Of a DNA stretch of 53,729 nucleotides, positions 5,424 to 28,071 are shown piece by piece. How positions within the stretch are numbered: position 1 is the first letter of the stretch; the number at the start of each line of letters is the position of its first letter. Source of the DNA: Clostridia bacterium (GTDB lineage Bacteria > Bacillota > Clostridia > Christensenellales > CAG-138); the NCBI GenBank assembly GCA_017614315.1, contig JAGACA010000015.1, positions 1-53,729 on the forward strand, in the 5' to 3' direction. The position numbers were made by a program, and so were the translations under genes. The notes under the pieces were generated by a model. It searched no databases. It had not been told where the DNA came from and saw only the letters and a program-made list of their open reading frames with translations.

Positions 5424-5430
5424 CGCAAAA

Positions 5431-5458
5431 AAGGGCGCTTCGAAATCGAAGCGCCCTT
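5431..5458. terminator. Bidirectional terminator between mtaD and the anti-sigma gene
   Basis: Perfect 12-bp stem AAGGGCGCTTCG / CGAAGCGCCCTT with an AAAT loop. On the minus strand it is followed by a run of T (AAAAAA on plus at 5427-5432); on the plus strand by TTTG. It lies between two convergent genes and can serve both. Confidence 0.85.
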
Positions 5459-5472
5459 TGTATCGCCGATCA

Positions 5473-6105
5473 TCAAAACCCCTTTTCGCGAACGATCCAT
5501 TGACCGTCTTGGGTTTTTACGACGATCCAGCTCCAATAGTAGATATGTGGATCCCACGCGCCGCCGAGCCCAAGAGGCGGAATGAACACGGAATCGAAAG
5601 CTATGCAGTCGATATAGGGTTCTTTCCCGTTATTGAGATACTTGTTTATGTAGTCAAGCTCGATCCTGCTTTTTTCGTCCCCTGCGTAGTTCAAAGAAAT
5701 AAGCTTATATAACCTCATGCTCTCCGCGTCGGCTTTCACCGCCGCGGCCGCCAGCTCCATATCCTCTTGGGTATGGACGTCGGAAGAGCCTAAGTCTATC
5801 GAAGTCGGCCAGAGGATGAACGCAGCCGCCAGAAGAACGAGGGTGCCAGCGATGGAGCCTGCGATGATGAGCGCGGTCCTCTTCCCGATCTTTTTCTTTA
5901 CTCTTTTCAAAGGCGCGGCATCGTTAACGTATTTCGTTTCTTTTGTGTTTATCCTTTCTTTCGCATCCTTCTGCTCTTTCAGCTCCTCTGCGCAGGAGGG
6001 ACACTCCTTCATGTGTTCATCTATCAAGGCCACGCTTTCCGGGCTGAGCATCCCCTCCGTATAAAGAGGCATCAGATCCTTTATAACATTACAATTAGTT
6101 TTCAT
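5473..6105 (-). CDS. Zinc-finger anti-sigma factor, membrane-anchored
   Basis: 210 aa. N-terminal anti-sigma zinc-finger motif HMKECPSC (His31, Cys35, Cys38), a lysine-rich linker, one transmembrane helix (about 77-99, ending in FILWP) and an extracytoplasmic domain of about 110 residues. Such proteins hold an ECF sigma factor inactive until an outside signal arrives. The ATG at 6105 has AAAGGAGGAA upstream and overlaps the sigma stop by 4 bases; the longer frame from 6228 is rejected because it would lie inside the sigma gene. The outer domain is not recognised, so the signal is unknown. Confidence 0.88.
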   Translation of the reverse strand: MKTNCNVIKDLMPLYTEGMLSPESVALIDEHMKECPSCAEELKEQKDAKERINTKETKYVNDAAPLKRVKKKIGKRTALIIAGSIAGTLVLLAAAFILWPTSIDLGSSDVHTQEDMELAAAAVKADAESMRLYKLISLNYAGDEKSRIELDYINKYLNNGKEPYIDCIAFDSVFIPPLGLGGAWDPHIYYWSWIVVKTQDGQWIVREKGF

Positions 6106-6584
6106 TTCAGTTCCTCCTTTTCGGCTATCATCTTCCTTGCGCGGTGATATGTGACGCACGCCCAATTCGCGCTTTTTCCAAACAGCGCTCCGATCCTTTC
6201 GAAGCTCATTTCGGCAAACACCCTCCACATGAACACCTCCTTATACGTTTCGGGAAGCTCATGCAGGATGCGCCTTATCCTTGCGGCGTCGTCACGATCC
6301 GATGCGACGTCCTCCGGGTTTTTACCGATATACGCGAGCTCGTCGATATCGTCAATGCTTACCGTGCAGCGGTTCTTTTTGAGATAGGTCTTATAGCAAT
6401 TGCCGGCGATCTTGCAAAGCCATGTGAACATACTGCACTCGCCGCGAAAAGAGTTGATGTGGGAAAGCGCCTTGAAAAACGTCTCAGCCGTCACTTCTTC
6501 GGCGGCGTCCTGATCTCCCGAAAGCTTGAGCACGTATCGGTATATGTCCTTGAAACATGTGTCGTATATTTCCTCAAACCGCAA
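6102..6584 (-). CDS. ECF-type RNA polymerase sigma factor
   Basis: About 160 aa with region 2 (FEEIYDTCFKDIYRYVLKLSGDQDAAEEVTAETF) and region 4 (LHELPETYKEVFMWRVFAEMSFERIGALFGKSANWACVTYHRARKMI, a helix-turn-helix for the -35 element). The frame opens with TTG codons. The TTG at 6593 lies only 1 base from AGGAGG (6595-6600), too close for initiation; the TTG at 6584 is 10 bases away and is the better start. Coupled to the downstream anti-sigma gene. It probably controls its own operon, but no ECF-type promoter could be fixed by eye. Confidence 0.9.
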   Translation of the reverse strand: MRFEEIYDTCFKDIYRYVLKLSGDQDAAEEVTAETFFKALSHINSFRGECSMFTWLCKIAGNCYKTYLKKNRCTVSIDDIDELAYIGKNPEDVASDRDDAARIRRILHELPETYKEVFMWRVFAEMSFERIGALFGKSANWACVTYHRARKMIAEKEELK

Positions 6585-6670
6585 ACCCGTCAAACCTCCT
6601 TTCGTTTTATTAGACGCGCTTTATGCCGAAATCTTACAGGCAAAATAAAAAAAGAGCTTTATCCGCTCTT

Positions 6671-7177
6671 TCAAACGACATCGAGCTGGTATGCGAGGCG
6701 TTCCGAGCCGTCCGAAACGTTTATGCGTCCGCAGTAATAAAAGCCGTATTTTTCGAGGATATGCCTGACGGGCAGGTTCTTCTCATGGGTGTCCGCGCGA
6801 AGCTCGAGCCCCTTTTTTCTGCATATCGAAGCGGCGTAGTCGAGACATTCGCGCGCCGTCCCGCGCTCGTTTTTCAAGGAGCCGAGCCTGTGCACGGTGA
6901 GATACGGCTTGTCGTTCGGCCACGCGCCCCCGCGTATCACGCGGTAAGTCGGCTCGTCGCCCTCGAAGAGCACGAAAGCCGCGGCGATCCTTCCGTCCCT
7001 GACGATGACGTAAAGCCTTTTAAGGGTGATATCCCGTCTTAAAAGCTCCTCGTCCGGATAGCCGCTCTTCCCCCACTGATCGGGATTGCCGTTTTCGGCC
7101 ATGAACCCGCGCGCCTCGTCATAGACCGCGAGTATTTGAGAAAGCTCGCCCATGCGGGCGAGCCTGATCTCACTCAT
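6671..7177 (-). CDS. GNAT family N-acetyltransferase
   Basis: 168 aa, probably acetyl-CoA dependent. The N-terminus IRLARMGELSQILAVYDEARGFMAENGNPDQW and the C-terminal RADTHEKNLPVRHILEKYGFYYCGRI (Asn-x-Pro-x-x-x-x-x-x-x-x-GF pattern) are typical of GNATs seen in many gut Firmicutes. The acetyl-CoA loop is not the classical QxxGxG/A, so the call rests on overall pattern. The start overlaps the stop of the upstream small gene by 8 bases, so the two are probably co-translated. Substrate unknown. Confidence 0.82.
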   Translation of the reverse strand: MSEIRLARMGELSQILAVYDEARGFMAENGNPDQWGKSGYPDEELLRRDITLKRLYVIVRDGRIAAAFVLFEGDEPTYRVIRGGAWPNDKPYLTVHRLGSLKNERGTARECLDYAASICRKKGLELRADTHEKNLPVRHILEKYGFYYCGRINVSDGSERLAYQLDVV

Positions 7178-11777: not shown

Positions 11778-11824
11778 ATAATTTGTATGATCGCAGATCG
11801 ACAGCTCATCCGGAGGACATAAAA

Positions 11825-13294
11825 ATGCCTTTCGTCATCTATTCACTGGTCTATCTAGGAAGCCTTCTGATGGTCTTCAATATCATCGGCTTCATCAGGT
11901 TCGCCCGATACGTTTCGAGGCTCAACACCGCGTTCGGGAACAAGGCCATACTCCGTATCCCAATAGTGCTTCTCGTTTTGTTCCTTCTGGGATATCTCGC
12001 TGTAGGCATATTCGGCAAGCCCGACATAATCATGTCCGGGATACTCTTCGGCGGAAGCGTATTCGTTTTCGTCATGTATCTTCTGCTTTTCAGGATCACC
12101 CGCCGTATCGTCGAGAGCGAGAAGATCGAGTCGCAGCTCAAAGCCGCGGAGGAATCGAATCGCGTTAAGACGAGCTTCCTTTCCAGCGTCAGCCATGAGA
12201 TGCGCACCCCGATGAACATAATAATCGGGCTCGATACCGTCGCGCTCGGCGATCCCGACGTTCCCCCGAAAACGCGGGAGAAGCTTGAAAAGATCGGCCT
12301 CAGCGCGAAGCATTTGATGGGGCTGATAAACAACATACTCGATATCAACAGGATAGAATCCGGCGAGCTCGAGCCAAAGCGCGAGGTCTTCCCGATGAAG
12401 TCCGCCATCGACCAGGTGAGCGCGATATTCGGCACACTTTGCGAAGAAAAGGGGCTCGGGTTCCGCGTCGTGGGCGCGGAGAACGTCGACAGGGCATTTA
12501 CGGGCGACGAGATGCTGATCAAGCAGGTGCTGATCTCCATGCTGGACAATGCCGTGAAGTACACAGACGCTCCCGGCTCGGTCAAGCTGGTCATCGGCGC
12601 AGATCCGACCGATGACGGCAAGACCGCGGTCACGTTCCGCGTGATGGATACCGGCGTCGGCATAGACAAGAGCTTCCTCCCCCATGTGTTCGAAGTGTTC
12701 ACGCAGGAGAATCAGAGCTCCACTACCCGCCACGGCGGAAGCGGCCTCGGCATGGCGATGGCGAAGAGGATCGTCGGGCTGATGGGCGGCGAGGTCTCGG
12801 TCGAGAGCGAAAAGAACGTCGGCACGACCTTCTCGTTCACGGTGCCGCTTGAGGAAGCGTCCGAGGACGCCGCGCCGTCGGCTACCGATGGCGGCGTCGA
12901 TTCGCTCGCCGGCCGCAGGATACTGATCGTCGAGGATATCCCCGACAACGCGGAGATCGTAGCCGATCTTTTAGAGCTCGAGGATGCGCTGTCCGAGCAC
13001 GCCGAAAACGGCCGCGTTGCGGTCGACATGTTCTCGGCTTCCGAGCCCGGATATTACGACGCGATACTGATGGATCTCAGAATGCCGGTCATGGACGGGC
13101 TTACGGCGACCCGCGCTATAAGGGAGCTCGACCGCGAGGACGCAAAGAAAATACCCATAATCGCCCTCACCGCCAACGCCTTTGCGAGCGACATCGGACA
13201 GGCGCTCACGGCGGGAATGAACGCGCATCTTTCGAAGCCCGCAGACTCGGAGCTCCTGTATTCCACTTTGAAGACATATATCGGCAGAGCGTGA
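11825..13294 (+). CDS. Membrane hybrid histidine kinase (HisKA-HATPase-REC)
   Basis: 489 aa. Three transmembrane helices (about 3-25, 44-62, 70-92) with only short loops outside, so no large sensory domain; then HisKA with SVSHEMRTPMN (phospho-accepting His124), HATPase (N box around LDNAVKYTD, G boxes VMDTGVGID and HGGSGLGMAMAKRIVG) and a C-terminal receiver with acceptor Asp417 in DAILMDLRMPVMDG and the conserved Lys in LSKPAD. Start ATG at 11825 has GGAGGAC upstream. Its kinase core is a close relative of that in the permease fusion at 15422 (shared ..RTPMNxIIGLD..LEKIGxSAKHLxGLINxILD). It opens the operon; a phosphate from its receiver would pass to the HPt protein. Confidence 0.92.
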   Translation: MPFVIYSLVYLGSLLMVFNIIGFIRFARYVSRLNTAFGNKAILRIPIVLLVLFLLGYLAVGIFGKPDIIMSGILFGGSVFVFVMYLLLFRITRRIVESEKIESQLKAAEESNRVKTSFLSSVSHEMRTPMNIIIGLDTVALGDPDVPPKTREKLEKIGLSAKHLMGLINNILDINRIESGELEPKREVFPMKSAIDQVSAIFGTLCEEKGLGFRVVGAENVDRAFTGDEMLIKQVLISMLDNAVKYTDAPGSVKLVIGADPTDDGKTAVTFRVMDTGVGIDKSFLPHVFEVFTQENQSSTTRHGGSGLGMAMAKRIVGLMGGEVSVESEKNVGTTFSFTVPLEEASEDAAPSATDGGVDSLAGRRILIVEDIPDNAEIVADLLELEDALSEHAENGRVAVDMFSASEPGYYDAILMDLRMPVMDGLTATRAIRELDREDAKKIPIIALTANAFASDIGQALTAGMNAHLSKPADSELLYSTLKTYIGRA

Positions 13295-13316: not shown

Positions 13317-15014
13317 ATGATACAGTCCAAACAGATACAGAGAGTCCACCGAATACTCGTCGTCGACGATCAGGAGATCAACCGCGACGCGCTGGGCGTC
13401 ATACTGGAGGATCAGTATGAGGTCGAGTACACGGAGAACGGCAAAGAGGCGCTCGAAATGATCCGCAACAGCGGATACGATTTCTCGCTCGTGATGCTCG
13501 ATCTCATTATGCCGGTAATGAACGGGTTCGAGGTGCTCGAAGCCATGCGCGGGGACGAGCGCATGAAGAACATACCCGTCATCGTCCTGACCGCCGAAAA
13601 GAGCGCGGAGCTCGAGGCCTTGAAGCTCGGCGCCGCAGACTTTATTACGAAGCCGTTCGACATGCACGAGGTCATACTCGCCCGCGTCGGACGCATGATA
13701 GAGCTGAGCGAGGGCAAGAACCTCATCTCCGCCGCCGAGCACGACAGGATCTCGCTCCTTTACAGCCGTAACTTCTTCTTTGAGTACGCGAACCGTCTGT
13801 TCACCTATCACCCCGATCTTCATCTCGACGCCGCCGTGCTGAACATCGAGCATTTCCATTCGATAAACGACCTTAACGGCAGGGAGTTCGGAAATAAGGT
13901 GCTGCGCGCTCTCGGCGACGCCATACGCGCGTTCCTTTCCGAGACCGACGGCATCGCCTGCCGCTATGAGGCGGATAATTTCAATATCTACTTCACGCAC
14001 CGCGCCGATTATTCGGAGCTTCTGGATCGTTTCCAGACGAAGATGAACGGCTTCTCGAAAAACGTGGATATACACCTTCGCATGGGCGTCATGCCTTGGC
14101 AGAAGGACATGGATCCTCTGACCATGTTCGACCGCGCGCGCACCGCATGCAACATGGTCCGCGGCGATTTCAAAAGGCCGCTCATGATCTATGACGACGA
14201 GATGCACAAGCGCGACCTGTTCAATCAAAGGCTGATAAACGACCTGCGTGCGGCGGTCGACGACAGGCAGCTGACGGTCTATTTCCAGCCGAAATACAAC
14301 ATACAGTGCGACCCGCCCGTGCTTTCGAGCGCAGAGGCTCTTATCAGGTGGAAGCATCCCGATCTCGGCATGATCTCCCCCGGCAGCTTCATTCCGCTTT
14401 TCGAGGAGAAGGGGCTTATAAGCATAGTCGACGAGTTCGTATGGCACGAGGCCGCCGGCAAGATCGCCGAGTGGCGCGGCAAGTACGGGGTAACGGTGCC
14501 CGTTTCCGTCAACCTTTCCCGCGCGGACGTGTTCGACGTATCGCTGGTCGACACCATGAAAAAGCTGACCGAGGAGAACGGCTTGGGCTCCAAGGATCTG
14601 AAGCTCGAGGTGACGGAATCCGCCTATTCCGACAACGCGAAACAGCAGCTCGAGGTCATCGCGAGCCTGCGCGAAAACGGCTTCGAGATCGAGATGGACG
14701 ACTTCGGCTCGGGATATTCGTCCCTGAACACGCTTTCCGCTATGCCCGTCGACGTATTGAAGATCGACATGAAGTTCATCCGCAATATCGAAACGAGCGA
14801 AACGGATCTCCAGTTAGTGAGACTGGTGCTCGACCTGTCCCGATACCTGAAGGTCAAGGTCGTGGCCGAGGGCGTCGAGACGGAAGGCCAGCTCAAGCTC
14901 TTGAAGGACGCCGGCTGCGACATAGTGCAGGGCTACTATTTCTCGCGGCCTCTCCCCGCGGACGAGTTCGAGAAACTGATCGAACGCGAAAAAAACGACG
15001 AAAGGATCCAATGA
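13317..15014 (+). CDS. Response regulator with receiver, degenerate GGDEF and EAL domains
   Basis: 565 aa, probable output of the phosphorelay. Receiver about residues 11-130 (acceptor Asp62 in VMLDLIMPVMNG, Lys in ITKPFD). Residues about 150-300 are GGDEF-like, but the signature is replaced by YEADNF near 216-221, so no cyclase activity is expected. The EAL domain (about 310-560) keeps SAEALIRW (Glu340), [36 protein letters not shown] and QGYYFSRP, as active phosphodiesterases do. It should hydrolyse cyclic-di-GMP under receiver control. Start ATG 22 bases after the kinase. The GGDEF-EAL part is a paralogue of the protein at 20968. Confidence 0.92.
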   Translation: MIQSKQIQRVHRILVVDDQEINRDALGVILEDQYEVEYTENGKEALEMIRNSGYDFSLVMLDLIMPVMNGFEVLEAMRGDERMKNIPVIVLTAEKSAELEALKLGAADFITKPFDMHEVILARVGRMIELSEGKNLISAAEHDRISLLYSRNFFFEYANRLFTYHPDLHLDAAVLNIEHFHSINDLNGREFGNKVLRALGDAIRAFLSETDGIACRYEADNFNIYFTHRADYSELLDRFQTKMNGFSKNVDIHLRMGVMPWQKDMDPLTMFDRARTACNMVRGDFKRPLMIYDDEMHKRDLFNQRLINDLRAAVDDRQLTVYFQPKYNIQCDPPVLSSAEALIRWKHPDLGMISPGSFIPLFEEKGLISIVDEFVWHEAAGKIAEWRGKYGVTVPVSVNLSRADVFDVSLVDTMKKLTEENGLGSKDLKLEVTESAYSDNAKQQLEVIASLRENGFEIEMDDFGSGYSSLNTLSAMPVDVLKIDMKFIRNIETSETDLQLVRLVLDLSRYLKVKVVAEGVETEGQLKLLKDAGCDIVQGYYFSRPLPADEFEKLIEREKNDERIQ

Positions 15015-15015
15015 A

Positions 15016-15387
15016 ATGACGCTTACCGAACTGTATGAAAAGATCGGCGGGAGCTATGACCGCGCGATAAGCGTGCTCCGCATCGAAAAGCTGATCGACA
15101 AGCATATCAGAAAGTTCCCGAAGGGCGGCGTGGTCGACGCGCTCATCGCCGCCGGCGATGACATGGACCCGACTGCGCTTTTCGAGAGCGCGCACGCCAT
15201 GAAGGGCGTATGCGCCAATCTCGGGCTCATCGGCCTTGCCGAGGCCGCTTCGGAGCTTGCCGAGGAATACCGTCCCGGCAACGAAAGAAGGCTTACGGAC
15301 GGCGAAGTTAAGGAAAGGCTCGAAAGGATACGCGGGCTTTACCGCATCGCCTGCGAAGGCATCGGAGAATACGAAAACTCGCTTTAA
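15016..15387 (+). CDS. Stand-alone histidine phosphotransfer (HPt) protein
   Basis: 123 aa. The motif FESAHAMKGVCANLGL places the phospho-accepting His at residue 60 (H-x-x-K-G pattern), within a helical bundle of HPt size. It starts one base after the stop of the REC-EAL gene, so coupled translation is likely. It is the relay piece that can accept phosphate from the receivers of the two hybrid kinases and pass it to Asp62 of the REC-EAL protein. No DNA-binding or catalytic domain. Confidence 0.88.
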   Translation: MTLTELYEKIGGSYDRAISVLRIEKLIDKHIRKFPKGGVVDALIAAGDDMDPTALFESAHAMKGVCANLGLIGLAEAASELAEEYRPGNERRLTDGEVKERLERIRGLYRIACEGIGEYENSL

Positions 15388-15421: not shown

Positions 15422-18400
15422 ATGAAAAAGAGCTCTCTGATCGGCGAAAGGCGGCTGACGCCCTATCTCACCGCGCTTGGTATGTGGGCGCTTGCGTTCG
15501 GATGCAGCGTGGGACAGGGCGCTTTCGTTATGCCGGGAACGACGTTCCTGCCGATCGCCGGCCCCATAGGCACTGCGATAGGCATCGCTCTCGGCGCGGC
15601 AGTCATGCTTGTACTCGCCAAAAACTATCATCTTCTGATGAACAGGTACCCCGACAGCGGCGGTACTTACACCTATACAAAGAAATGCTTCGGTTTCGAT
15701 CACGGCTTTTTGAGCGCGTGGTTCCTGATCCTGACGTATATCGCCATACTCTGGGCAAACGCCACGGCTCTGCCAATAGTCGCGAGAACGCTCTTCGGGA
15801 GCGCGTTCCAGTTCGGCTTCCATTATGAGATAGCCGGATTCCATATATATCTGGGCGAGATCCTTCTCGCGGTGCTCGCGCTCGCGCTCGCGGCGTTCCT
15901 GTGCCTGAGGCGTTCACTCGCCGCGGGCGTGCAGATACTGATGGGCGTGTTCCTCGCGGCTGCGGCCGTATTCGTTCTCGTCGTCGCGATAATAAAGCGC
16001 GATCCCTCAGTGCCGCTCTTCGAACCGGCTTTCGGCGGATCGGGCGTCGCCGCTAACGGGACGCTGACTATACTTGCCCTCGCGCCGTGGGCTTATGCCG
16101 GATTCGAGTCGGTATCCCATTCCGCGGCGGAGGCGAGGTTCCCGCTTAAGAAGACGTTCCGCGTGCTCGCGCTTTCGATACTCGTTTCGGCGATCGCCTA
16201 TATCGCGCTCGCGCTCCTCGCGTCGGTATCCGTCCCCGCAGGGCTCAAGAACTGGACCGAATACGTCGCGAATCTCGGCAATTATTCCGGCGTCGAAGGT
16301 CAGCCCACGTTCTTCGCAGCGAGAGCCGCTCTCGGCGGTACGGGCTCCGCGATAATCGGCGTCGCGGCGCTGTTCGGGATATTTACCGGGCTCATAGGCA
16401 ATTACATCGCTCTCAGCCGCCTGATCCGCTCCCTTTCGGAGGACAGGATGCTGCCCATGTGGATCGGCAGGCTCGACAGGAACAACGTCCCCCGGCGCGC
16501 GATACTGATCGTGCTCGCGATATCGGTGATACTGCCCTTCTTCGGGCGCACCGCAATAAGCTGGATCGTCGACGTGACGACCGTCGGCGCGACGATCGCC
16601 TACGCGTTCTGCTCAGCGGCCGCCTTGAAGACCGCAAGGCAGGAGAAATCGAAGTCCGGCGTCGTGTTCGGCGCGGTAGGGCTTGCTGTTTCGGTGTTCT
16701 TCGCGCTGGCGTTCCTTATCCCGAACCTCATTTCGGTAAAGACGCTCGCGACGGAATCCTATCTGATACTCGCCGCGTGGGGTCTCCTGGGCTTCATCGT
16801 GTTCCTCTGCCTTTTGAAAAACGACAAGCAGCGCAGGATCGGGCGTTCGAACGTCGCGCTTATCGTACTTCTCGGCGTCATTATATTCACGTCCACCGTC
16901 TGGATGCGACAGGCTTCCGATCTTGCGATCGAAAGATCCGTGACGCCTATCGAGACCTATTATACCGAAAAGCTGCAGGAGGCGGGCGTCGACACGGTAT
17001 CCGGCGCAACGAAGTCCGCGGACACTTATCTCCGCGGGGTATTGAGCGAGACCAACCTCTCGCTCGTCGCAGCGACCGGCATACAGGTCTCCCTCATCTG
17101 TCTTACGCTTATCGTGCTGTTTGTGATCTACTCCACGATACAGAAGCGCGAAAAGCAGATCGAGGTCGAGAAGGCTCTCGCGGAGGAGTCGAGCAAAGCC
17201 AAGACCAGCTTCCTTTCCAATATGAGCCATGAGATCAGGACGCCGATGAACGCTATTATCGGCCTTGACAGCATCGCTCTGCGCGATCCCGATATCTCGC
17301 CCAAAACGCGCGATCACCTTGAAAAGATCGGCGCGAGCGCGAAGCACCTTCTTGGCCTCATAAACGACATACTCGACATGAGCCGCATCGAGTCCGGACG
17401 CATGGCGCTCAAAGACGAGGAGTTCTCGTTCCGCGAGATAATCGACCAGGTCAACATAATAATCGGCGGTCAGTGCGCCGATAAGGGTCTGAATTACGAA
17501 TGCAACCTGTTCGGCGGAGTAAAGGATTACTACGTCGGCGATGGCATGAAGCTGAAGCAGGTGCTTATCAATATCCTCGGCAACTCGGTGAAGTTCACAG
17601 AGGCTCCCGGCTCCGTCATTCTGAACGCGGAGCAGCTTGAAGAGGAAGACGGGGTATGCCGCATGCGCTTCACGATGAAGGACACCGGCATAGGCATGGA
17701 CGAGGCGTTCATTCCCAAACTTTTCGAGGCGTTCTCGCAGGAGGACGCGACGTCGACCAACCGCTACGGCGGAAGCGGTCTCGGCATGGCGATAACCAAG
17801 AGCTTCGTCGAGATGATGCACGGCGATATCGCGGTCGAAAGCCGCAAGGGCGTCGGCTCGATTTTCCGCGTGACCGTCGAGCTCAAGGCCTCCGACCGCA
17901 GCGTAAGCGATGAGCACGGCATAAAGCTTCCCGATGGGCTCCGCGTGATCGTCGTCGACGACGACAGGATCGCGTGCGAGCACGCCGAGCTGGTGCTCAG
18001 ATCGCTCGGCGCGGAGGTGAAATCGTTCGTATCGCCGACGGAAGCGCTGAAGGCCGTTAAGGCCGCGTACGATCGGGGCGAGCCTTACAGGATCCTCCTC
18101 ACCGACTATAAGATGCCGGAGCTGAGCGGACGCGAGCTTTCGCGCGAGGTACGCCGGTTCGACGGCGGCTCCACTGCGATAATAATGCTGACCGGCTATA
18201 ACTGGGACATCATCGACGAGGAGACCCGGAAGGACGGCGTCGACTTCATACTGGCGAAGCCGCTCTTTACCGACAGTCTGCTCCGTGCGATATGCTCCGT
18301 GCTCGACAACAAGGGCGGCGCGGAAGAAGCTCCCGAAGTCGAAGAGCCCGCCGAAAACCCGCTTGCGGGGCACAGGATACTCATGGCGGAGGACGTCGAC

Positions 18401-18754
18401 GCCAACGCCGAGATCTTGGGCGATCTGCTTGACCTTGAGGGGATCGAGTCGGAGCGCGCTGAGAACGGCAGGATCGCCGTCGATATGTTCGCATCCAATC
18501 CCCCAGGGCATTACGACGCTATACTGATGGACGTCAGGATGCCCGTTATGGACGGCCTTTCCGCCACGCGCGAGATAAGGGCGCTGGATCGCGGGGACGC
18601 GAAGACGATTCCCATTATCGCCATGACCGCCAACGTATTCGACGAAGACGTCGAGCGCTCGCTCGAGGCGGGCATGAACGAACACCTGTCGAAGCCCATC
18701 GAGCCCGACATACTGTTCGCGAAGCTCGCGGAGCTCATCACGAAGCGGAGCTGA
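15422..18754 (+). CDS. APC-superfamily permease fused to a hybrid histidine kinase with two receivers
   Basis: 1110 aa. Residues about 1-470 form an amino-acid-permease-like unit of about 12 membrane helices: GMWALAFGCSVGQGAFVMPG (the unwound first helix motif of APC carriers), YPDSGGTYTYTKKCFG, and APWAYAGFESVSHSAAE. Two more helices (about 480-496 and 551-573) enclose an outside loop of about 55 residues that contains DTVSGATKSA (524-533). HisKA follows (MSHEIRTPMN, His603), HATPase (DTGIGMD, YGGSGLGMAITKSF), receiver 1 (DDD 846-848, acceptor Asp895) and receiver 2 (acceptor Asp1037, LSKPIE). The carrier part probably acts as the sensor for an amino acid or amine. The arrangement recalls CbrA, where a sodium/solute-symporter-like domain is fused to a kinase, but with a different transporter family. 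Last gene of the operon. Confidence 0.93.
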   Translation: MKKSSLIGERRLTPYLTALGMWALAFGCSVGQGAFVMPGTTFLPIAGPIGTAIGIALGAAVMLVLAKNYHLLMNRYPDSGGTYTYTKKCFGFDHGFLSAWFLILTYIAILWANATALPIVARTLFGSAFQFGFHYEIAGFHIYLGEILLAVLALALAAFLCLRRSLAAGVQILMGVFLAAAAVFVLVVAIIKRDPSVPLFEPAFGGSGVAANGTLTILALAPWAYAGFESVSHSAAEARFPLKKTFRVLALSILVSAIAYIALALLASVSVPAGLKNWTEYVANLGNYSGVEGQPTFFAARAALGGTGSAIIGVAALFGIFTGLIGNYIALSRLIRSLSEDRMLPMWIGRLDRNNVPRRAILIVLAISVILPFFGRTAISWIVDVTTVGATIAYAFCSAAALKTARQEKSKSGVVFGAVGLAVSVFFALAFLIPNLISVKTLATESYLILAAWGLLGFIVFLCLLKNDKQRRIGRSNVALIVLLGVIIFTSTVWMRQASDLAIERSVTPIETYYTEKLQEAGVDTVSGATKSADTYLRGVLSETNLSLVAATGIQVSLICLTLIVLFVIYSTIQKREKQIEVEKALAEESSKAKTSFLSNMSHEIRTPMNAIIGLDSIALRDPDISPKTRDHLEKIGASAKHLLGLINDILDMSRIESGRMALKDEEFSFREIIDQVNIIIGGQCADKGLNYECNLFGGVKDYYVGDGMKLKQVLINILGNSVKFTEAPGSVILNAEQLEEEDGVCRMRFTMKDTGIGMDEAFIPKLFEAFSQEDATSTNRYGGSGLGMAITKSFVEMMHGDIAVESRKGVGSIFRVTVELKASDRSVSDEHGIKLPDGLRVIVVDDDRIACEHAELVLRSLGAEVKSFVSPTEALKAVKAAYDRGEPYRILLTDYKMPELSGRELSREVRRFDGGSTAIIMLTGYNWDIIDEETRKDGVDFILAKPLFTDSLLRAICSVLDNKGGAEEAPEVEEPAENPLAGHRILMAEDVDANAEILGDLLDLEGIESERAENGRIAVDMFASNPPGHYDAILMDVRMPVMDGLSATREIRALDRGDAKTIPIIAMTANVFDEDVERSLEAGMNEHLSKPIEPDILFAKLAELITKRS

Positions 18755-18823: not shown

Positions 18824-19837
18824 TTACTTGGAGAAATTGGCGGAATAGATCTTTTCCGCCATCGCGGAAGACGCGAAGTCGACTATTATCCATCCGGAAA
18901 GCGCCGTATCCGATCCGAGGAAGCGTGCGTTCAGCGTCCTTGCGTGCTGATAGGGATGGCCGAATTTCGCCGTGCCGTTCGTGGAAAGGAAGTTCAGGAA
19001 CACGTTTTCGCCGTCCGCCCTGCCCTCGGAAAAGGCTCGGGTAAACGCCGTCCACTTGTCCTCCGTGCCGTATTTGAAGCGATCCTGCACCCAGAGGGTA
19101 TAGCTTCCGTTATTCGTCTCAACGGTATTGACCGCAGTCATTTCGCGGTTGCTCTGATCGACCCAGCTGAACTGTATCCCGCTGTAATCGGCGCCCGCTT
19201 CGTTGTCCCAGCGGCGCATGAGCACGAGCCTGCCCCTTGCCTCGCCGACGGTCGGTATGCTGTCTGTCAAAAGCCAGCGCTCGGGTGCCTTTTCGATGAG
19301 CGCGTCGAGGAGACCGCTTATGATCTTGATCGATTCGTCGCCGTGATCCTTCTTTACCGCGAACACCACGAACTCGGACGGATGCGCCTCGAGGAAAGCA
19401 TAACAGTCCTCGAGAACCGCGTCGAGGTACAGAGGCTTCGACCACGGAGCGGCAGTCTCTTTGCAGTCGACGAAGCCGTGTACGAGCTTGAGCCTTTCGC
19501 CGTCGGCCGCGATGCGGACGTCGAGATAGCGAAAGCCGGCGTTCAGCTGATCGCCTATGGAGAGCGCCTGACATTTCGAGAAGAAGGCGAGGCGCACCTC
19601 CGACGCGGCGCTGTCATGGGTGCCGGGGAGTATCGCTTCGCTTATCGGCAGGCTGTCGTCGAGCCCGCGCATCCAGTCCGCGGAGCCCTCCTTAAGCGTC
19701 TTGTCGACGGTCTCGAACGCGGGTATCGCGATCATGAGCACCGCGTAAGCGACGGCGAGCGCGGCGATCAATACCGCTATCACGCGGAGCGCCGATCCGA
19801 GCGGCGAGCGTCTTCTTCTTTTTATGTTCATTGCCAT
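18824..19837 (-). CDS. Membrane-anchored PI-PLC-like phosphodiesterase (PLC X-domain)
   Basis: 337 aa. Basic N-terminus, one transmembrane helix or uncleaved signal (about 15-38), then an outside catalytic domain. LPGTHDSA (His74, Asp75) and YLDVRIAADG (Asp106, Arg108) with LVHGFVD (His120) match the two-histidine active site of bacterial phosphatidylinositol-specific phospholipase C. Later motifs (FVVFAVKKDHGDES, RGRLVLMRRWD) also fit the family. It probably acts on a phosphoinositide or related glycerophosphodiester outside the cell. Start ATG 19837 has GGAGGACGGAG upstream. Not in an obvious operon. Confidence 0.85.
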   Translation of the reverse strand: MAMNIKRRRRSPLGSALRVIAVLIAALAVAYAVLMIAIPAFETVDKTLKEGSADWMRGLDDSLPISEAILPGTHDSAASEVRLAFFSKCQALSIGDQLNAGFRYLDVRIAADGERLKLVHGFVDCKETAAPWSKPLYLDAVLEDCYAFLEAHPSEFVVFAVKKDHGDESIKIISGLLDALIEKAPERWLLTDSIPTVGEARGRLVLMRRWDNEAGADYSGIQFSWVDQSNREMTAVNTVETNNGSYTLWVQDRFKYGTEDKWTAFTRAFSEGRADGENVFLNFLSTNGTAKFGHPYQHARTLNARFLGSDTALSGWIIVDFASSAMAEKIYSANFSK

Positions 19838-20967: not shown

Positions 20968-23874
20968 TCATCTGCCGGCCTTTTTGCCGAGTATGGTCTT
21001 TTCGAATTCCGCTGCAGGAAGCGGACGCGAGAAGTAATAGCCCTGCACGATATCGCAGCCTGCTTCCTTGAGGAGCTTGAGCTGTATCTCGGTCTCGACG
21101 CCCTCCGCGACGACGAGCACCTTAAGGTTCTTCGCGATGTCGAGTATCAGCTTGACGAGGCGGAGATCCTTCTCGTTCCGGTCGATGTTCCTTATGAATC
21201 CGATGTCCATCTTAAGAACGTCGATGGGCATGGACGAGAGCATGTTGAGGGAGGAATAACCCGTGCCGAAGTCGTCCATCTCGATCTCGTAGCCCTTCTC
21301 CCTCAGCTCGCCGATTATTCGGATGAGATGATCGGCGTTTTCGGTATAGGCGGACTCGGTGACCTCAAGCTTGATGTCGCGCCTTTCGAGACCGTATTTA
21401 TTAATGAGCGCGTCCATAGTCCTCAGGAGGTCGGGATCGAACACGTCCACCCTCGAAAGGTTGACGGACACGGGGAGCGTATACCCGAGCATATCGCGCC
21501 ACGCGGCGACCTGCTTAGCGGCCTCCTCGCGGACGTATTTATCGAGCGTGCTGATCTGTCCGCTGTCTTCGAGCAGTGAAATGAAGTCGGGAGGATTGAT
21601 CATGCCGAGCTCGGGATGGTTCCAGCGTATCAGCGCCTCGGCGCTCTCAAGCGTCGGATGTTCGGTCTTTATATTGTATTTGGGCTGATAATAGACCTCG
21701 AGCTCATGCTCGCCGAGGGCGCGCATGAGGTCGTTCCTCAGGCGGCTGTTGAGCTCCTCGCGGTTCTTCAGCTCCTCGTCGTAGACCATCAGGTGCTTTT
21801 TGAAATCACCTCGTACCAGATCGCACGCCATCCATGCGCGCTCGAACATCTGATCGGGCAGCATGCCCTTCTGCCACGGCATTACGCCCATGCGGAGTAT
21901 GATCTCGGAATTCTTCGAGACCTCGTTCATGCGATCCTGGAAGCGATCAAGGAGCTTATCGTAATCGTCGCGGTGAGCGCAGTAGATATCGAAGTGATCG
22001 CCCTCCATGCGTCCCGCGATGCCGTCCGCGTCCTTTAAGAAAACCCTTATCTCCTCGCCGAGCGCGCGTATCACGTCGTCGCCGAAGCTTCGTCCGTTAA
22101 GGGTATTCAGCATGTGCAGTTTTTCGACGTTCAGGACTATCGCGTCCATCTTTTTGGACGGATTCTCCTTAAACATCCTGTGCGCGTACAGTATGAAGAA
22201 CCCGCGGGTGTAAAGAGCGGTAAGGTTGTCGTGCTCCGTTTCGGAGATGATCTGCATGCCCTCGTTCGCCTTTATGATGGAGCGGAAGTTCAAAATTATG
22301 AGCAGGAGTATAAGTATGATTATCGCTGCGGCGACGCCTATGAACGCGGCAAGGTTGTCGTGCAGGAAATCGCCGAAGGTGACGCGGTCGTCGAGGAAGG
22401 TGCTGCCGGTAAGCGATGCGTTGACGAGCGCGCTGGGGATCTGGCGGTTGATCTTGTTGAGTATCGAATAGAGCTCGTCGTTCTCCCTGCTTACCGCGAA
22501 CGAAAGATCCATCGCGTGTCCCGTCGTGAGGTTCGAGAGCTTCAGTCTGTCGCAGATATCACTTATTCGGTTAAGGCGGTAATTGCTGGTCAGCGTGCAG
22601 TCCGCCTCTCCGTTCGCCACCGCCTTGAAGCAGGCGTCGGTATTCTTGAAATACCTGATCGACCAATCGGGGAAGAAATCCTTTACAAAGGTGGTGTGAT
22701 TGCGGTGCCCCTCCACGATGGCTACGGTCATAGGCTCGTCCGGTGAGATGCCGCGCTGATCCGAGCTCCTTACGGAGGCGTAGACCTCGGTGCTGATCAG
22801 GGTGTCGGTTATTATGACTCCGAGCTTTTCGCCGTCATACGACGCGATATTCACCGGGAAAAGGACGTCGATCTCGCCCGTACGCAGGGCGTTCAATGCG
22901 TTGTCCATCGTATCGAACCCCTGCGTTTCGAAGGTGAGCTTCGCGTTCTTCTCGCAGTTCTCCGCATATTTGAGATAATCGGTGAGCGCGCCGATAAGTT
23001 CGTTGGTGGACTCGTCCTCGGCGCAGAAGGGCAGGAAGTCGTTGCGGTAGCCGACGCGGATGGCGCCGTGGCCGTTCAGCCATTCTTTCTCGTCCGGAGT
23101 AAGAAAATTGCTGACGCCGCGCGTCTGCAGGTATTTTTCGGCGAGCTGTTCGTTGAAGTTGCGGTTGTTTTCGAATATGCGGTTCATGGCGCCGTCCAGA
23201 TCCCGCTTGAGATCCGGGCGGTTCTTGTTGATGCCGAAATAGGAATACGCGGAACCTATCTTGCAGACGGAAAGAACGTCCGCGGTCGCTCCGTATGCGT
23301 CGAGGGTGACAAGCACGTCGATCTCGCCGCGCGCAAGCATCTCGAGGAGCTCGGGGGACTTGCCGGAAAGCTCCACGATCTCGGGAGTTACGCTATGAGT
23401 CTTCGCCCACTCGATGAGGAGCTCTTCCTGTATGCTGTTCTTGTTGACGCCGACCTTTTTGCCGTTGAAGGTGGTGAAATCGTCGGGGCTTATCTCGCTG
23501 TTGGTGGGTGAAATGAAGGCGTGGTAGTCTTCCGAGCCCATCTCCTCGGCGGAGTAAAGTATGAGCTCGGCGCGCGCCTCGGTATAGGAAACGTCGCTCA
23601 GGATATCGATCTGGCCGGCAACGAGCATTTCGAAAAGCTCCGACCAGCTCCCCTCTACGTATTCGTAGATCCAGCCGGTGTACGTGGCTATGCGCTGCTG
23701 ATACTCATAGCCGTAGCCGGAGCGTCTGCCGTACTGATCCGTGCGGTGATACGCGGATTCGTACCAGCCGACGCGGACGACCTTCCTTTCCGCCGCCGAC
23801 GCCTTTTGGACAAGCGGCGCCGCAGCCGTCAGAAGAAGCAGCGTCAGAAGAAGGATCGAAATGAGCTTTTTCAT
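20968..23874 (-). CDS. Double solute-binding-domain / degenerate GGDEF / EAL sensor phosphodiesterase
   Basis: 968 aa. Signal peptide (about 1-27, cleaved near QKASAAE), two tandem family-3-like solute-binding domains outside (about 28-250 and 265-495; the first starts [10 protein letters not shown], the second [14 protein letters not shown]), one transmembrane helix (about 507-529), then a cytoplasmic GGDEF-like domain with the signature changed to RMEGDHF, and an intact EAL domain ([11 protein letters not shown] near 745, [44 protein letters not shown]). It should break down cyclic-di-GMP in response to an amino-acid-like ligand. ATG at 23874 has GAGGA upstream; the longer frame to 23940 is rejected. 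Paralogous to the output protein at 13317. Confidence 0.93.
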
Positions 23875-24195
23875 AATAACCGTCCTCTTTCCCGACAACA
23901 GATCATTGAAGAACCGTGCTTCGGGCATAGTTATACCCATACATAAAGATTATATCATATAATCTTCGTCAATTCCATAGTTTTACATAAATTTTTTATA
24001 TTGGTAATAGTTCCCCCCATTCCGCCTGCCGCGGAGAAAAAAAAGATTGGAAATTTCGGTCGAATTGTGATATTATATTTGGGTTAGAGCATACATGGCT
24101 CATGTCCCGGTCAAAACGCCGGTCGGCATATGTCTGTTCCATTATTATGAGCGTTTCCCGCACAAGGCGCTTCTGCCGCCGGGAAGAGGTCGAAA
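23875..24195. promoter_or_regulatory. Divergent control region between the EAL and GGDEF genes
   Basis: AT-rich region of about 320 bases. It holds a perfect palindrome at 23946-23966 and, for the plus-strand gene, a promoter with -35 TTGGAA (24047-24052), 18-base spacer and -10 TATTAT (24071-24076). The plus-strand leader of about 110 bases has GC-rich self-complementary stretches, but I do not recognise a cyclic-di-GMP riboswitch in it. Confidence 0.6.
23946..23966. repeat. Perfect 21-base palindrome, operator-like
   Basis: 10-bp arms AAGATTATAT and ATATAATCTT around a central C. It includes a TATAAT on the minus strand and lies about 75 bases before the EAL gene start, with TTGACG just upstream on that strand (but with only 12 bases to TATAAT). 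It looks like a binding site for a dimeric regulator over the promoter of the EAL gene. Confidence 0.6.
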
Positions 24196-25548
24196 ATGAA
24201 AAAACGGAAATTCGGTTTTGCAACACAATACACCGTTATAGTCTGCGCGCTGCTCGTGATCGTCAACGCTGTGCTCGGCATAGTGCTTATCCGCCAGTCG
24301 GGGAACGCCATGCGGACGCTGATCCGCTGGCACATGCTCTCCGTTTCGGATACCGCCGCCGCCGCCGTCGACGGCAATCTTCTTGAGTCGCTCACCGAGA
24401 ACGACGTCGGTACTGAGGACTTCGAGAGCATCGCGAAAACGCTGACGAAGGTCCTCGACGCGCAAAAGGACAACGACATCAAATACATCTACGCCGCCAA
24501 GAAGCAGGGCGATCATTTCGTGTTCACGGTCGATCCCGATCCGGTGAACCCCGGTGCGTTCGGCGAGGATGTCGTATACACCCCCGCGCAGGAGATAGCA
24601 TGGTCGGGCACGTCCGCTATCGACAACGATACCTACAGCGATAAATGGGGAAGCTTTTACACCGCTTGGAGCCCCGTAAGGAACTCCTCCGGCAAGGTCA
24701 TCGGCCTTATAGGCGTCGATTTCGTTGCAGATTGGTACGACGCGCAGGTCAAGGAACATTCCATGTTCGTCGTCATATTCAGCACCCTTTCGATCGTCGT
24801 CGGAGCTCTCATAATGGTGCTCACCACAGCTCAGCTCAGAAGGCGCATACGCACGCTCAATTCGGAGCTCTCCGTGCTTTCGGAGGATGTCGAGAAGCTT
24901 TCCGACGAAATCAGGGCCGGCTCCGCCGAGGAAGGCAAGCCCGTCGAGGATATCGTTCCGGATCGCTCCGCCGACGCCATCGGTCAGCTGTCCGGGCAGA
25001 TCCGTATAATGCAGCAGAAGCTTAAGGATTACATGGACTATGCGCACGAGCAGGCCTATACCGATTCGATGACGGGCATGGGCAACAAGGCCGCATACCT
25101 TGATCACATCAAGGTGCTGAACGACGAGATCAACGCGGGTACCGCCGCGTTCGCCATCGCGGTATTCGATGTGAACGGACTTAAGAAGACGAACGACAGC
25201 TTCGGTCACGAATGCGGCGACAGGATCATTATAGACGCCGCCGCGATACTCCGCAGGGTGTTCGGCTCCGGGCGCATATACCGCATCGGCGGCGACGAGT
25301 TCATAGTCGTGCTCGGCCCCACTACCGAGGAGGAGCTCGACGCCCTGATAAAGAGGCTCGACGACGAGATCGAGAACTTCAACAAAAACGAGAAGCGCTA
25401 CGTTATGACGCTTTCGTTCTCAGGCGGCGGCGCAGTCTACCATCCCGGCGACGACGCCGATTTCAAGGAGGTCTTCCGCCGCGCGGACGAAGCCATGTAT
25501 AACAGAAAGAACAGCTATTATCTTGAAAAGGGCGAGGCCCGCCGCTGA
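24196..25548 (+). CDS. Membrane diguanylate cyclase with Cache-like sensor
   Basis: 450 aa. Two membrane helices (about 12-34 and 190-212) enclose an outside Cache-like domain (KYIYAAKKQGDHFVFTVDPDPVNPGAFGED, SFYTAWSPVRNSSGKVIGLIGVDF), followed by a HAMP-like/coiled linker and a GGDEF domain (TDSMTGMGNKAAY, FDVNGLKKTNDSFGHECGDR, IGGDEF with GGDEF at 365-369). It should make cyclic-di-GMP. The five-residue-upstream RxxD inhibitory site is absent. Divergent from the EAL sensor, so the pair may set opposing activities. Confidence 0.93.
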   Translation: MKKRKFGFATQYTVIVCALLVIVNAVLGIVLIRQSGNAMRTLIRWHMLSVSDTAAAAVDGNLLESLTENDVGTEDFESIAKTLTKVLDAQKDNDIKYIYAAKKQGDHFVFTVDPDPVNPGAFGEDVVYTPAQEIAWSGTSAIDNDTYSDKWGSFYTAWSPVRNSSGKVIGLIGVDFVADWYDAQVKEHSMFVVIFSTLSIVVGALIMVLTTAQLRRRIRTLNSELSVLSEDVEKLSDEIRAGSAEEGKPVEDIVPDRSADAIGQLSGQIRIMQQKLKDYMDYAHEQAYTDSMTGMGNKAAYLDHIKVLNDEINAGTAAFAIAVFDVNGLKKTNDSFGHECGDRIIIDAAAILRRVFGSGRIYRIGGDEFIVVLGPTTEEELDALIKRLDDEIENFNKNEKRYVMTLSFSGGGAVYHPGDDADFKEVFRRADEAMYNRKNSYYLEKGEARR

Positions 25549-26314: not shown

Positions 26315-27412
26315 TTAGCCCTCCGCTTTCGGCTCGCGGCTTTTTCTGCGGTCGATACCGTTCGTCTGATAATACCTTGCCTTGTCCTCGTACATCATGC
26401 GGTCGGATTCTCCGATCGTCTCTTCAAGATCGCGATCCTTGCGGCAGACCGCATATCCGGCGGAGATGCTGTAGCCGTCTGCGGTCACCTTCTCCTTGAT
26501 CTTCTTTTCGATCCCGGCTATCTCCTCCTCGTCGTCATGGAAGAACAGTATCGCAAACTCGTCCCCGCCGATCCTGTAAGCCGACGTCCTGCGATCAGTG
26601 AATGAAAGCAGGCATTGGCCGATCTTTTTCAAAGCTTCGTCGCCGGACTGATGCCCGCGGGAGTCGTTCAGCTTTTTTAAGCCGTTCATATCGAGCGACG
26701 CGACTGCCTTGATGCTTTTGCTCAGCGCGGCGCAGTCGTCATAATACGCATTGCGGTTGCTCAATCCGGTCAGCGGATCCAGACGGTTGTCGTGCGAGTA
26801 CAGCACTATATAGAAAAATATGCTGCTGATCATTATCGCGGCGGTAAGTTCGTTTCCGCCTATGAACACGCCTTTAGCGGTCGCGGCGATGCAGCAAAGT
26901 ATGCAGGCGGGAACGATAAATCTTTCCGACCCGCTTTTCTCCGTGATGCGGCGCAGGGAATAAATAAGTATCACAAGGATATAAAAGAGCGGTACAATGA
27001 ACGAGACGACGCCGAGAGGTCCGCGGTAAAAGCCGTAATCCTCGCCGTATCCGAACGCCACGTCGCTGAAAAACGCCGTGCAGTTGATGAGGAACGTGAC
27101 CGCGCAGGGGATCCACCAAAGGAAGGATCTTTTGTTTCGCGGAATAATGACGAGCAGGAGCCCGAGAGCCGCCGTGGAGCGAAGCGTATAGCCGAGGATC
27201 GAGAGGAGTATCCGCCAGAACCGCAAAGCAGGGTCTTTTGCCGCCGCCACTTCAAGAGCATCCTCGAACACGAGAAGCAAACAACTTATGAGAGTAAGCC
27301 AGAAATACTTTGTTTCGGCGTTTTGAAAGGATTTTTTATTCAGCAGTCTGATCCCGAAAAGCACGATCAGAAAAAGCGAGACCATGTTTTGTATGATCAT
27401 GTCCCATATCAT
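26315..27412 (-). CDS. Membrane diguanylate cyclase (integral membrane sensor-GGDEF)
   Basis: 365 aa. Six or seven hydrophobic helices in the first 200 residues without an outer domain, then a GGDEF domain: DPLTGLSNRNAYYDDC, LDMNGLKKLNDSRGHQSGDEALKKI, YRIGGDEFAILF and ISAGYAVC. All catalytic marks are kept, so activity is likely; no RxxD inhibitory site at the usual place. The ATG at 27412 is 7 bases from AAAGGGGGG; the ATG at 27418 is too close, and the long frame to 27613 is rejected. Confidence 0.9.
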   Translation of the reverse strand: MIWDMIIQNMVSLFLIVLFGIRLLNKKSFQNAETKYFWLTLISCLLLVFEDALEVAAAKDPALRFWRILLSILGYTLRSTAALGLLLVIIPRNKRSFLWWIPCAVTFLINCTAFFSDVAFGYGEDYGFYRGPLGVVSFIVPLFYILVILIYSLRRITEKSGSERFIVPACILCCIAATAKGVFIGGNELTAAIMISSIFFYIVLYSHDNRLDPLTGLSNRNAYYDDCAALSKSIKAVASLDMNGLKKLNDSRGHQSGDEALKKIGQCLLSFTDRRTSAYRIGGDEFAILFFHDDEEEIAGIEKKIKEKVTADGYSISAGYAVCRKDRDLEETIGESDRMMYEDKARYYQTNGIDRRKSREPKAEG

Positions 27413-28071
27413 GGTCATTCCCCCCTTTACCGCTGTTTTATCGATTATACATGAAAAAGAACGGCGCGTCAATCTCGGAAAAAAGATCGGCTGCGGCGGT
27501 GGGACTCGTTGTGCAAAAGATGCGTCTCGAACTTGCGCTTCGCGCCGCGTTCTCGCGCCTTTTGTCATGACCCGGCCTTTTGCCGTCTGTTCCGTCCACA
27601 GGACGGACCGCAAAAGGCTTCGAGTCCCATAACGACAAATACCACACAGAAGGCGTCACGGAAATCCTCAAAGCCTGCGATCAACTCGAATGGATCCGGC
27701 AAATTAACTCCTGCCGGGCAAGAGCAGAGGAGCAGGTCATACGCGAAAAAGTATTGGCATAAAAGAAAGAGCATGAGCTCTCCGTTGATGTAGTTGCCGA
27801 AGGGATCCAGACTGCCGGCGCAACGGATGAAGCCGACGTTCCGACCGTGACCGCCGAATGGGGCTGCACCGTAGCAGAGGACGCTTCGATCGCAAAATAA
27901 AACGTATAAAACTAAAGCAGCGGCATGTAATACGCACGCTGCTTTCGCCGGCATTGCCTGACCTGTATAGACTTTTGAGACAACACAAAAGGGTATCCGG
28001 CACGATCTGCGCGTTGCTTGCGAAAGCACCCGCGTTGAGCGGGCGCTTTCGATAAGGGAATACGGGAAGGA
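27413..28071. other. Non-coding region with a possible decayed EAL fragment
   Basis: About 660 bases without a convincing gene. In the plus frame running through 27721, codons read RAEEQVIREKVLA, stop (27760-27762), then KKEHELSVDVVAEGIQT and later AEWGCTVAEDASIAK, stop (27898-27900). VVAEG..T resembles the VVAEGVET motif of EAL domains, but upstream residues do not match. Hairpins AAGCAGCG / CGCTGCTT (about 27914-27944) and CGAAAGC / GCTTTCG (about 28020-28050) lie at the right side. Confidence 0.5.

Follow-up and report, generated by a model that had tools for sequence, protein, structure and literature searches.

A contig of 53,729 nucleotides from a gut-type bacterium of the Clostridia (JAGACA010000015.1, here called the window; it is the whole of contig 11 in a 1.71 Mb genome of 21 contigs, 90.7% complete) encodes, at 15422-18754 on the forward strand, a protein of 1110 amino acids (aa) in which an APC-type carrier is joined to a hybrid histidine kinase with two receiver (REC) domains. 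Fusions of this kind form a family that is real, widespread and coherent, and its genomic link to cyclic di-GMP (c-di-GMP) is well supported. Judged from domains, conserved residues and gene order, a receptor derived from a CAT-like APC carrier would probably drive a phosphorelay to a c-di-GMP phosphodiesterase, coupling a nutrient cue to c-di-GMP; we hold this interpretation with some confidence, short of a strong one.

The open reading frame (ORF) has an ATG start and no internal stops. Its N-terminal part matches the Pfam family AA_permease_2 (PF13520) at residues 21-445 (15482-16756) with 94.7 bits against a cut-off of 27. The match covers positions 6-414 of a profile of 427 and thus spans the whole domain, as in a member of the APC carrier family; AA_permease matches as well, at 59.8 bits. 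In the C-terminal part HisKA (residues 593-659, 17198-17398, with the phospho-acceptor H603), HATPase_c (706-822, 17537-17887, N and G boxes intact) and two stretches of Response_reg (best 986-1102) all exceed their curated cut-offs. The first receiver, REC1, with D895 and K946, has approximate limits of 17945-18295, and REC2, with D1037 and K1091, lies at 18377-18727, all of these on the forward strand. The HisKA histidine, the ATP-binding boxes and the receiver Asp and Lys residues that characterize a hybrid histidine kinase are therefore all in place. In the homologues, where domains, loci and residues were counted with profiles built from Pfam-located seeds and not with Pfam itself, the acceptor His, the N-box Asn and the Asp and Lys of both receivers are kept in all 39 two-receiver kinases; the one-receiver kinases are devoid of REC1 and keep the acceptor His and the Asp and Lys of REC2 in 29 of 29. 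The domain searches of both halves thus confirm what had originally been predicted from the letters of the DNA, namely a full APC-type carrier and a two-receiver hybrid kinase in a single frame.

Genome contigs were scanned with an alignment of the carrier plus linker, which gave at least 584 relatives, and the best 80 were kept for locus counts. An output domain follows in the same frame in 76 of these 80 loci, a share that is biased upwards because the loci were ranked by similarity to a query containing the linker. Three more loci (L071, L093, L108) reach the contig end inside or just past the carrier, and in L086 alone the parts fall in two separate frames. By record title, the 76 include two isolates, Ruminococcus albus AR67 (L092) and Eubacterium ruminantium FB3002 (L094). 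Broken or split relatives do occur (L086, L079, L034, L195), and might be taken to indicate a frameshift or an assembly join of a permease beside a kinase; however, same-frame outputs in so many independent assemblies, two isolates among them, in effect refute this explanation, whose probability we consider negligible. L034 and L195 show broken APC frames in the same family, those of L195 beside a histidine phosphotransfer (HPt) protein and a protein of the REC-GGDEF-EAL type.

The impression of an unusual, isolated fusion does not hold, since the family is large and found mostly in genomes labelled Bacillota, with some Actinomycetota. Labels among the 80 loci include Lachnospiraceae, Oscillospiraceae, Erysipelotrichaceae, Selenomonadaceae, Coriobacteriaceae, Atopobiaceae and one Flexilinea; the relatives are mostly metagenome bins, for which a single label may be wrong. 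Ruminants or the rumen are named in 26 of the 80 titles and 32 more carry RUG numbers, which we take to denote rumen genomes, but the collection is rich in rumen material and these counts do not measure habitat. Matches at E 1e-40 were rare in broader draws: 16 of 391 genomes for the class and 21 of 398 for the phylum, figures in which the genome of the window and stand-alone permeases are counted too. The carrier was not found in 12 other genomes of the same genus, several of them incomplete, which may reflect transfer, loss or missing sequence. Viral contigs scanned with the full protein gave no relative. Twelve plasmid records matched, the best at about 31% identity to the carrier part; the two inspected both contain stand-alone permeases, with neighbours that give no hint of a substrate.

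Outputs within the family are varied. The APC carrier is fused to hybrid kinases with two receivers or one, to plain kinases (L186, L187, with weak or missing HisKA matches), to GGDEF, to GGDEF-REC-GGDEF-EAL (L025, L054) and to HD-GYP (L182, L183, Pfam HD_5). GGDEF domains synthesize c-di-GMP, whereas EAL and HD-GYP domains break it down. The genome of the window itself encodes an APC-GGDEF protein on its contig 1. The motif of the first GGDEF domain is kept in all 11 APC-GGDEF fusions, and the second domain reads GGDTF in L025 and GADTF in L054. In a midpoint-rooted tree of 89 carrier domains, in which L027 forms a long branch, a single branch (100/100) parts the 70 fused carriers from 19 stand-alone permeases; left out of this tree were 28 of the 85 kinase rows, rows cut by contig ends, the broken L034, L120 and L195, L086, and L117 (a duplicate of L194). 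Within the fused group the tree requires 4 changes of the GGDEF label and 2 of HD-GYP, of which well-supported branches force at least 3 and 2, respectively; outputs have thus been exchanged. Both plain-kinase loci hold tandem pairs of receiverless APC-kinases, at 4507-6951 and 6947-9418 in L186 and at 396-2939 and 2923-5400 in L187, all on the reverse strand; one member of the L186 pair is without a HisKA match and has a HATPase below cut-off, as if the two formed a heterodimer. A different APC permease is fused to universal-stress-protein (Usp) stretches at L029:9202-11550.

Carrier and kinase are connected by a shared joint. The original prediction counted about 12 helices and flagged a joint at residues 480-600; the helices of the APC fold are there, but two further helices and a loop before the kinase had been missed. 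Family-mean hydrophobicity over 61 homologues (the window protein and 60 of 69 usable loci) reads 14 hydrophobic segments, the twelve of the APC fold plus a further pair near 479-491 and 552-567, which we call transmembrane segments TM13 and TM14 (together with their loop at 16856-17122, +). W494 at the end of TM13 is invariant (61/61). The loop is 35-65 aa long, poorly conserved and, from the deduced topology, presumably extracytoplasmic. The stretch past TM14 (17123-17197, +), with R576, K584 and A587 invariant in the same 61 proteins, runs straight into the kinase and is probably helical. Aligned kinase fusions and aligned GGDEF fusions alike have the two extra helices. Pfam lists no domain for residues 445-593; whether Pfam holds a STAC model is unchecked.

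The gene for the fusion protein is the last of four on the same strand, in the order hybrid kinase, REC-GGDEF-EAL protein, HPt protein, APC-kinase, with gaps of 22, 1 and 34 bases. The hybrid kinase (11783-13294, 503 aa, HisKA-HATPase-REC) shows N-terminal hydrophobic stretches by eye and no other Pfam domain. The REC-GGDEF-EAL protein (13317-15014, 565 aa) has a degenerate GGDEF motif, EADNF, and the HPt is a stand-alone protein (15016-15387, 123 aa, Pfam Hpt 2.4e-8) whose HAxKG histidine is residue 60. The parts of a multistep His-Asp-His-Asp phosphorelay are thus found in one run of genes, with their acceptors intact. Where more than 500 bp of upstream sequence is available, an HPt gene is the upstream neighbour in 60 of 76 loci; for the two-receiver kinases among them the figure is 38 of 38. 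The REC-GGDEF-EAL gene comes next in 43 of 64 loci with more than 2400 bases upstream, and where more than 4000 bases are available the hybrid kinase is present in 35 of 53 loci and all three partners in 33 of 53. At L107 the HPt and REC-GGDEF-EAL genes are nearby but face away from the APC-kinase. All 63 HPt ORFs (those below 170 aa) share the histidine at its aligned column, and the operon's HPt is the only one found in its own genome, at the given completeness.

Conservation of the putative output was examined in 46 REC-GGDEF-EAL proteins, taken as plus-strand ORFs below 650 aa with exactly that architecture; this set does not include L107, where the gene is on the other strand, L027 and L195, which show an additional GGDEF match, or the proteins of L177, L179 and L181. 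All 46 keep the receiver Asp together with the catalytic positions of the EAL domain (EAL, Asn, Glu, DDFG and Lys), and 45 keep two further EAL columns, the remaining row being gapped there. The GGDEF motif is present at the aligned place in none of the 46, although a similar string occurs elsewhere in L070. The protein is thus predicted to be a phosphorylation-controlled c-di-GMP phosphodiesterase. Because EAL is kept and GGDEF lost in 46 of 46 proteins of the relay, while GGDEF is kept in 11 of 11 direct fusions, the family's sequences point to breakdown of c-di-GMP by the relay version and synthesis by the direct GGDEF fusions.

We suggest that signalling might proceed as follows. In this view a CAT-like APC carrier, extended by TM13, an extracytoplasmic loop and TM14, would serve as the sensor. 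Its pocket between TM1, TM3, TM6 and TM8 may bind a small solute, probably an amino acid or a similar compound; the resulting carrier motion could shift the TM13/TM14 pair, and the helix past TM14 would relay this to the HisKA dimer. The intact residues and the gene order suggest that phosphate would pass from H603 to a receiver Asp, to His60 of the HPt and to the receiver of the REC-GGDEF-EAL protein. Of the two receivers, REC2 (D1037) is the likelier donor to the HPt, being the one retained in one-receiver homologues, of which 14 of the 26 with room still have the HPt. The phosphorylated output receiver might then set EAL activity, the GGDEF half having lost its motif. In relatives the same kind of sensor would feed c-di-GMP synthesis (GGDEF) or breakdown (HD-GYP, EAL) directly.

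By sequence, CAT4, CAT1 and GkApcT are the closest chains of solved structure, and the pocket was mapped by pairwise alignment to GkApcT, confidently for TM6 and TM8 and weakly for TM5, with residue roles taken from the available part of its description (PMC5803215). The important charged residues of GkApcT are kept only in part. Its F231 corresponds to W223, the TM6 gate position, Trp in 70 of 70 fused carriers. D237 corresponds to E229, which is Glu in 70 of 70 fused carriers and Asp in 17 of 19 stand-alone permeases; M321 to N327, Asn in 58 of 70 fused and Phe in 19 of 19 stand-alone; and I40 to position 29, small (S/A) in 64 of 70 fused and I, V or M in 19 of 19 stand-alone. K191 (L178 in the window protein) is non-basic in all 89 proteins, with L in 57, F in 12 and M in 1 of the 70 fused, and E115 (T105) is uncharged in all 89. 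The TM1 and TM6 glycines G31, G33 and G227 are common to fused and stand-alone permeases. The receptor idea fits with the fused carriers forming one group in the tree with conserved pocket positions of their own, and such a pocket would suit a receptor that has a ligand of its own; the same pattern would be seen in a transporter of another substrate. As to the ligand, some distant stand-alone cousins have suggestive neighbours. At L189:750-7706 two permeases of a related type are flanked by a sulfoacetaldehyde acetyltransferase on one side and a class-III aminotransferase on the other, an arrangement resembling a taurine-use cluster; L191 is near a class-III aminotransferase and L190 near a semialdehyde dehydrogenase just below cut-off. 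These hint at taurine- or beta-alanine-like substrates for the cousins, but the three loci are too far from the fused group for a ligand to be read across, and this assignment was rejected. The nearer stand-alone group (L028, L030) has neighbours that give no hint of a substrate.

Other readings of the same proteins have to be weighed. The carrier half might be a working transporter that reports its own flux, so that kinase output follows turnover and not binding, as has been argued for CbrA. G31, G33 and G227 are as in stand-alone permeases, the gate Trp is universal in the fused set, and the carrier part of CbrA is reported, in the part of a preprint available to us (PMC13022988), to mediate histidine uptake. 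Against this, in the 70 fused carriers the Lys191 position is never basic and the Glu115 position never acidic; yet this loss does not part a flux sensor from a receptor, because 19 of 19 stand-alone permeases are also without both residues and the TM5 alignment is of low confidence. Loss of the TM5 lysine as proof of lost transport was rejected for the same reason. We consider a flux sensor rather unlikely. Another reading, in which the carrier is only a membrane anchor or dimerization device and the TM13-loop-TM14 hairpin is the true sensor, seems less probable still, and distinctly so. The hairpin adjoins the kinase, and its loop, extracytoplasmic by the deduced topology, is variable in length as sensor loops often are, but that loop is poorly conserved whereas the pocket positions of the carrier are strongly conserved, and it would be costly to retain twelve helices of carrier across 70 diverse proteins just for anchorage.

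The identity of the HPt donor is a separate matter. Phosphate might reach the HPt from the neighbouring hybrid kinase (11783-13294) instead, with the APC protein acting mainly as a phosphatase or as a modulator of that kinase: the two genes travel together at the frequency given above, and both products have HisKA, HATPase and REC. However, H603 and the ATP-binding boxes are intact in all 39 two-receiver APC kinases, and L081, L082 and L083 have an HPt and an APC-kinase with no other kinase in view; we regard this alternative as doubtful, about on a par with the flux sensor.

Several observations weigh against a carrier-derived receptor that acts through this relay on c-di-GMP, besides the possible role of the second kinase. 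No adjacent HPt is found in 16 of the 76 loci with room, all at 46-48% identity and mostly with one-receiver kinases; among one-receiver loci with room, 13 of 27 are without it (12 of 26 of HisKA-HATPase-REC architecture, and L102). In 8 loci with an HPt and room, REC-GGDEF-EAL is not next (e.g., L081, L082, L083, L094). Pocket features shared with stand-alone permeases lend no support to receptor use because those permeases have them too, and at position 32, where the common feature is Trp, the window protein has Gln. No PilZ protein was found in a search of the genome; an RF01051 riboswitch search of it, in which no control gave a match, is uninformative.

The genome has 18 GGDEF matches in 1.71 Mb. 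Near the operon, the window has three more c-di-GMP genes, which encode an SBP_bac_3 (two stretches)-GGDEF-EAL protein (20968-23940, -) and two GGDEF proteins (24196-25548, +; 26318-27655, -). Directly downstream of the APC-kinase, on the opposite strand, lies a PI-PLC-X-like protein below the Pfam cut-off (18824-19837, -). In some relatives the gene directly downstream of the APC-kinase is an ORF of some 1150 aa that matches GGDEF (L083:8831-12313, L092:8858-12313, and similarly in L060, L065, L067, L082, L084 and L094); the two checked by Pfam are SBP_bac_3 (two stretches)-PAS-GGDEF proteins. An Rfam search of the window gave one tRNA and nothing else.

The family might have a wider meaning. 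We give about even chances to the view that the SLC7-like APC carrier with TM13-loop-TM14 is a general prokaryotic signalling input module, swapped among hybrid and plain kinases, GGDEF, GGDEF-REC-GGDEF-EAL and HD-GYP, that would make up a large transporter-derived receptor class with plain carrier homology and possibly a main route from amino-acid-like cues to c-di-GMP in many gut and rumen Bacillota. If true, this would provide nutrient input to c-di-GMP for those bacteria, and the family may represent an unexplored bacterial way of sensing nutrients. It combines a shared joint with several outputs, as a phosphorelay version and as direct c-di-GMP enzymes, and since GGDEF, EAL and HD-GYP outputs have simple assays, the conversion of carrier motion into a signal is testable in one protein. 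In the parts of the sources available to us, CbrA is termed a rare transceptor in a 2026 preprint (PMC13022988), and a 2024 paper on S-components describes transceptors as seeming oddities and then introduces a class of its own (PMC11109136); yet here there are 76 in-frame examples among the best 80 of at least 584 relatives. The available text of a 2022 review of c-di-GMP sensory domains contains "permease" 0 times and "transporter" once. Many homologues exist, but in a literature search, with most subscription papers outside it, none was found described, and neither an APC-kinase nor an APC-GGDEF fusion came up; the architecture may still be listed, uncommented, in domain databases.

Known systems offer partial parallels, drawn here from the portions of the cited papers available to us. 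The carrier-turned-receptor idea is itself already known (CbrA, Amt5); as far as searched, an APC carrier with these outputs is undescribed. The original comparison with CbrA holds in its logic: CbrA, like CrbS and RpuS of the SLC5/STAC group, combines a solute carrier and a histidine kinase in one protein, and some members of the group are hybrid kinases (PMC13022988, PMC9100948). It does not extend to the carrier, for the window protein has no SSF (SLC5) match in Pfam at E 0.01, the carrier matches listed being AA_permease_2 and AA_permease, and a two-helix joint, without a Pfam domain, precedes HisKA. CrbS/R and RpuS/R work via LuxR-type regulators (PMC9100948), in contrast to the REC-GGDEF-EAL output of the present operon. 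Ks-Amt5 of Kuenenia stuttgartiensis likewise links a transporter, recruited as a sensor, to HisKA; it has no PAS, HAMP or STAC domain between them and has lost transport, and its response regulator was not identified (PMC5764959). It has an Amt carrier and C-terminal DHp and CA domains only, in contrast to the APC carrier (no Amt/Rh match is listed by Pfam), two receivers and operon-encoded HPt and output described here. An APC fold as an amino-acid receptor has a precedent in GerAB of Bacillus subtilis germination (PMC8617281), which is however a separate subunit acting with GerAA and GerAC, with no kinase fusion. GkApcT and the CAT (SLC7) carriers, the closest in sequence, are stand-alone, and GkApcT K191, E115 and M321 are replaced in the window protein by L178, T105 and N327. 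The 5TMR/S-component kinases also join a transporter-type fold in modular fashion to kinase, GGDEF and EAL domains (PMC11109136); there the kinship of the ECF S-component fold to transporters is structural, while in the family described here the homology to carriers is plain in the sequence.

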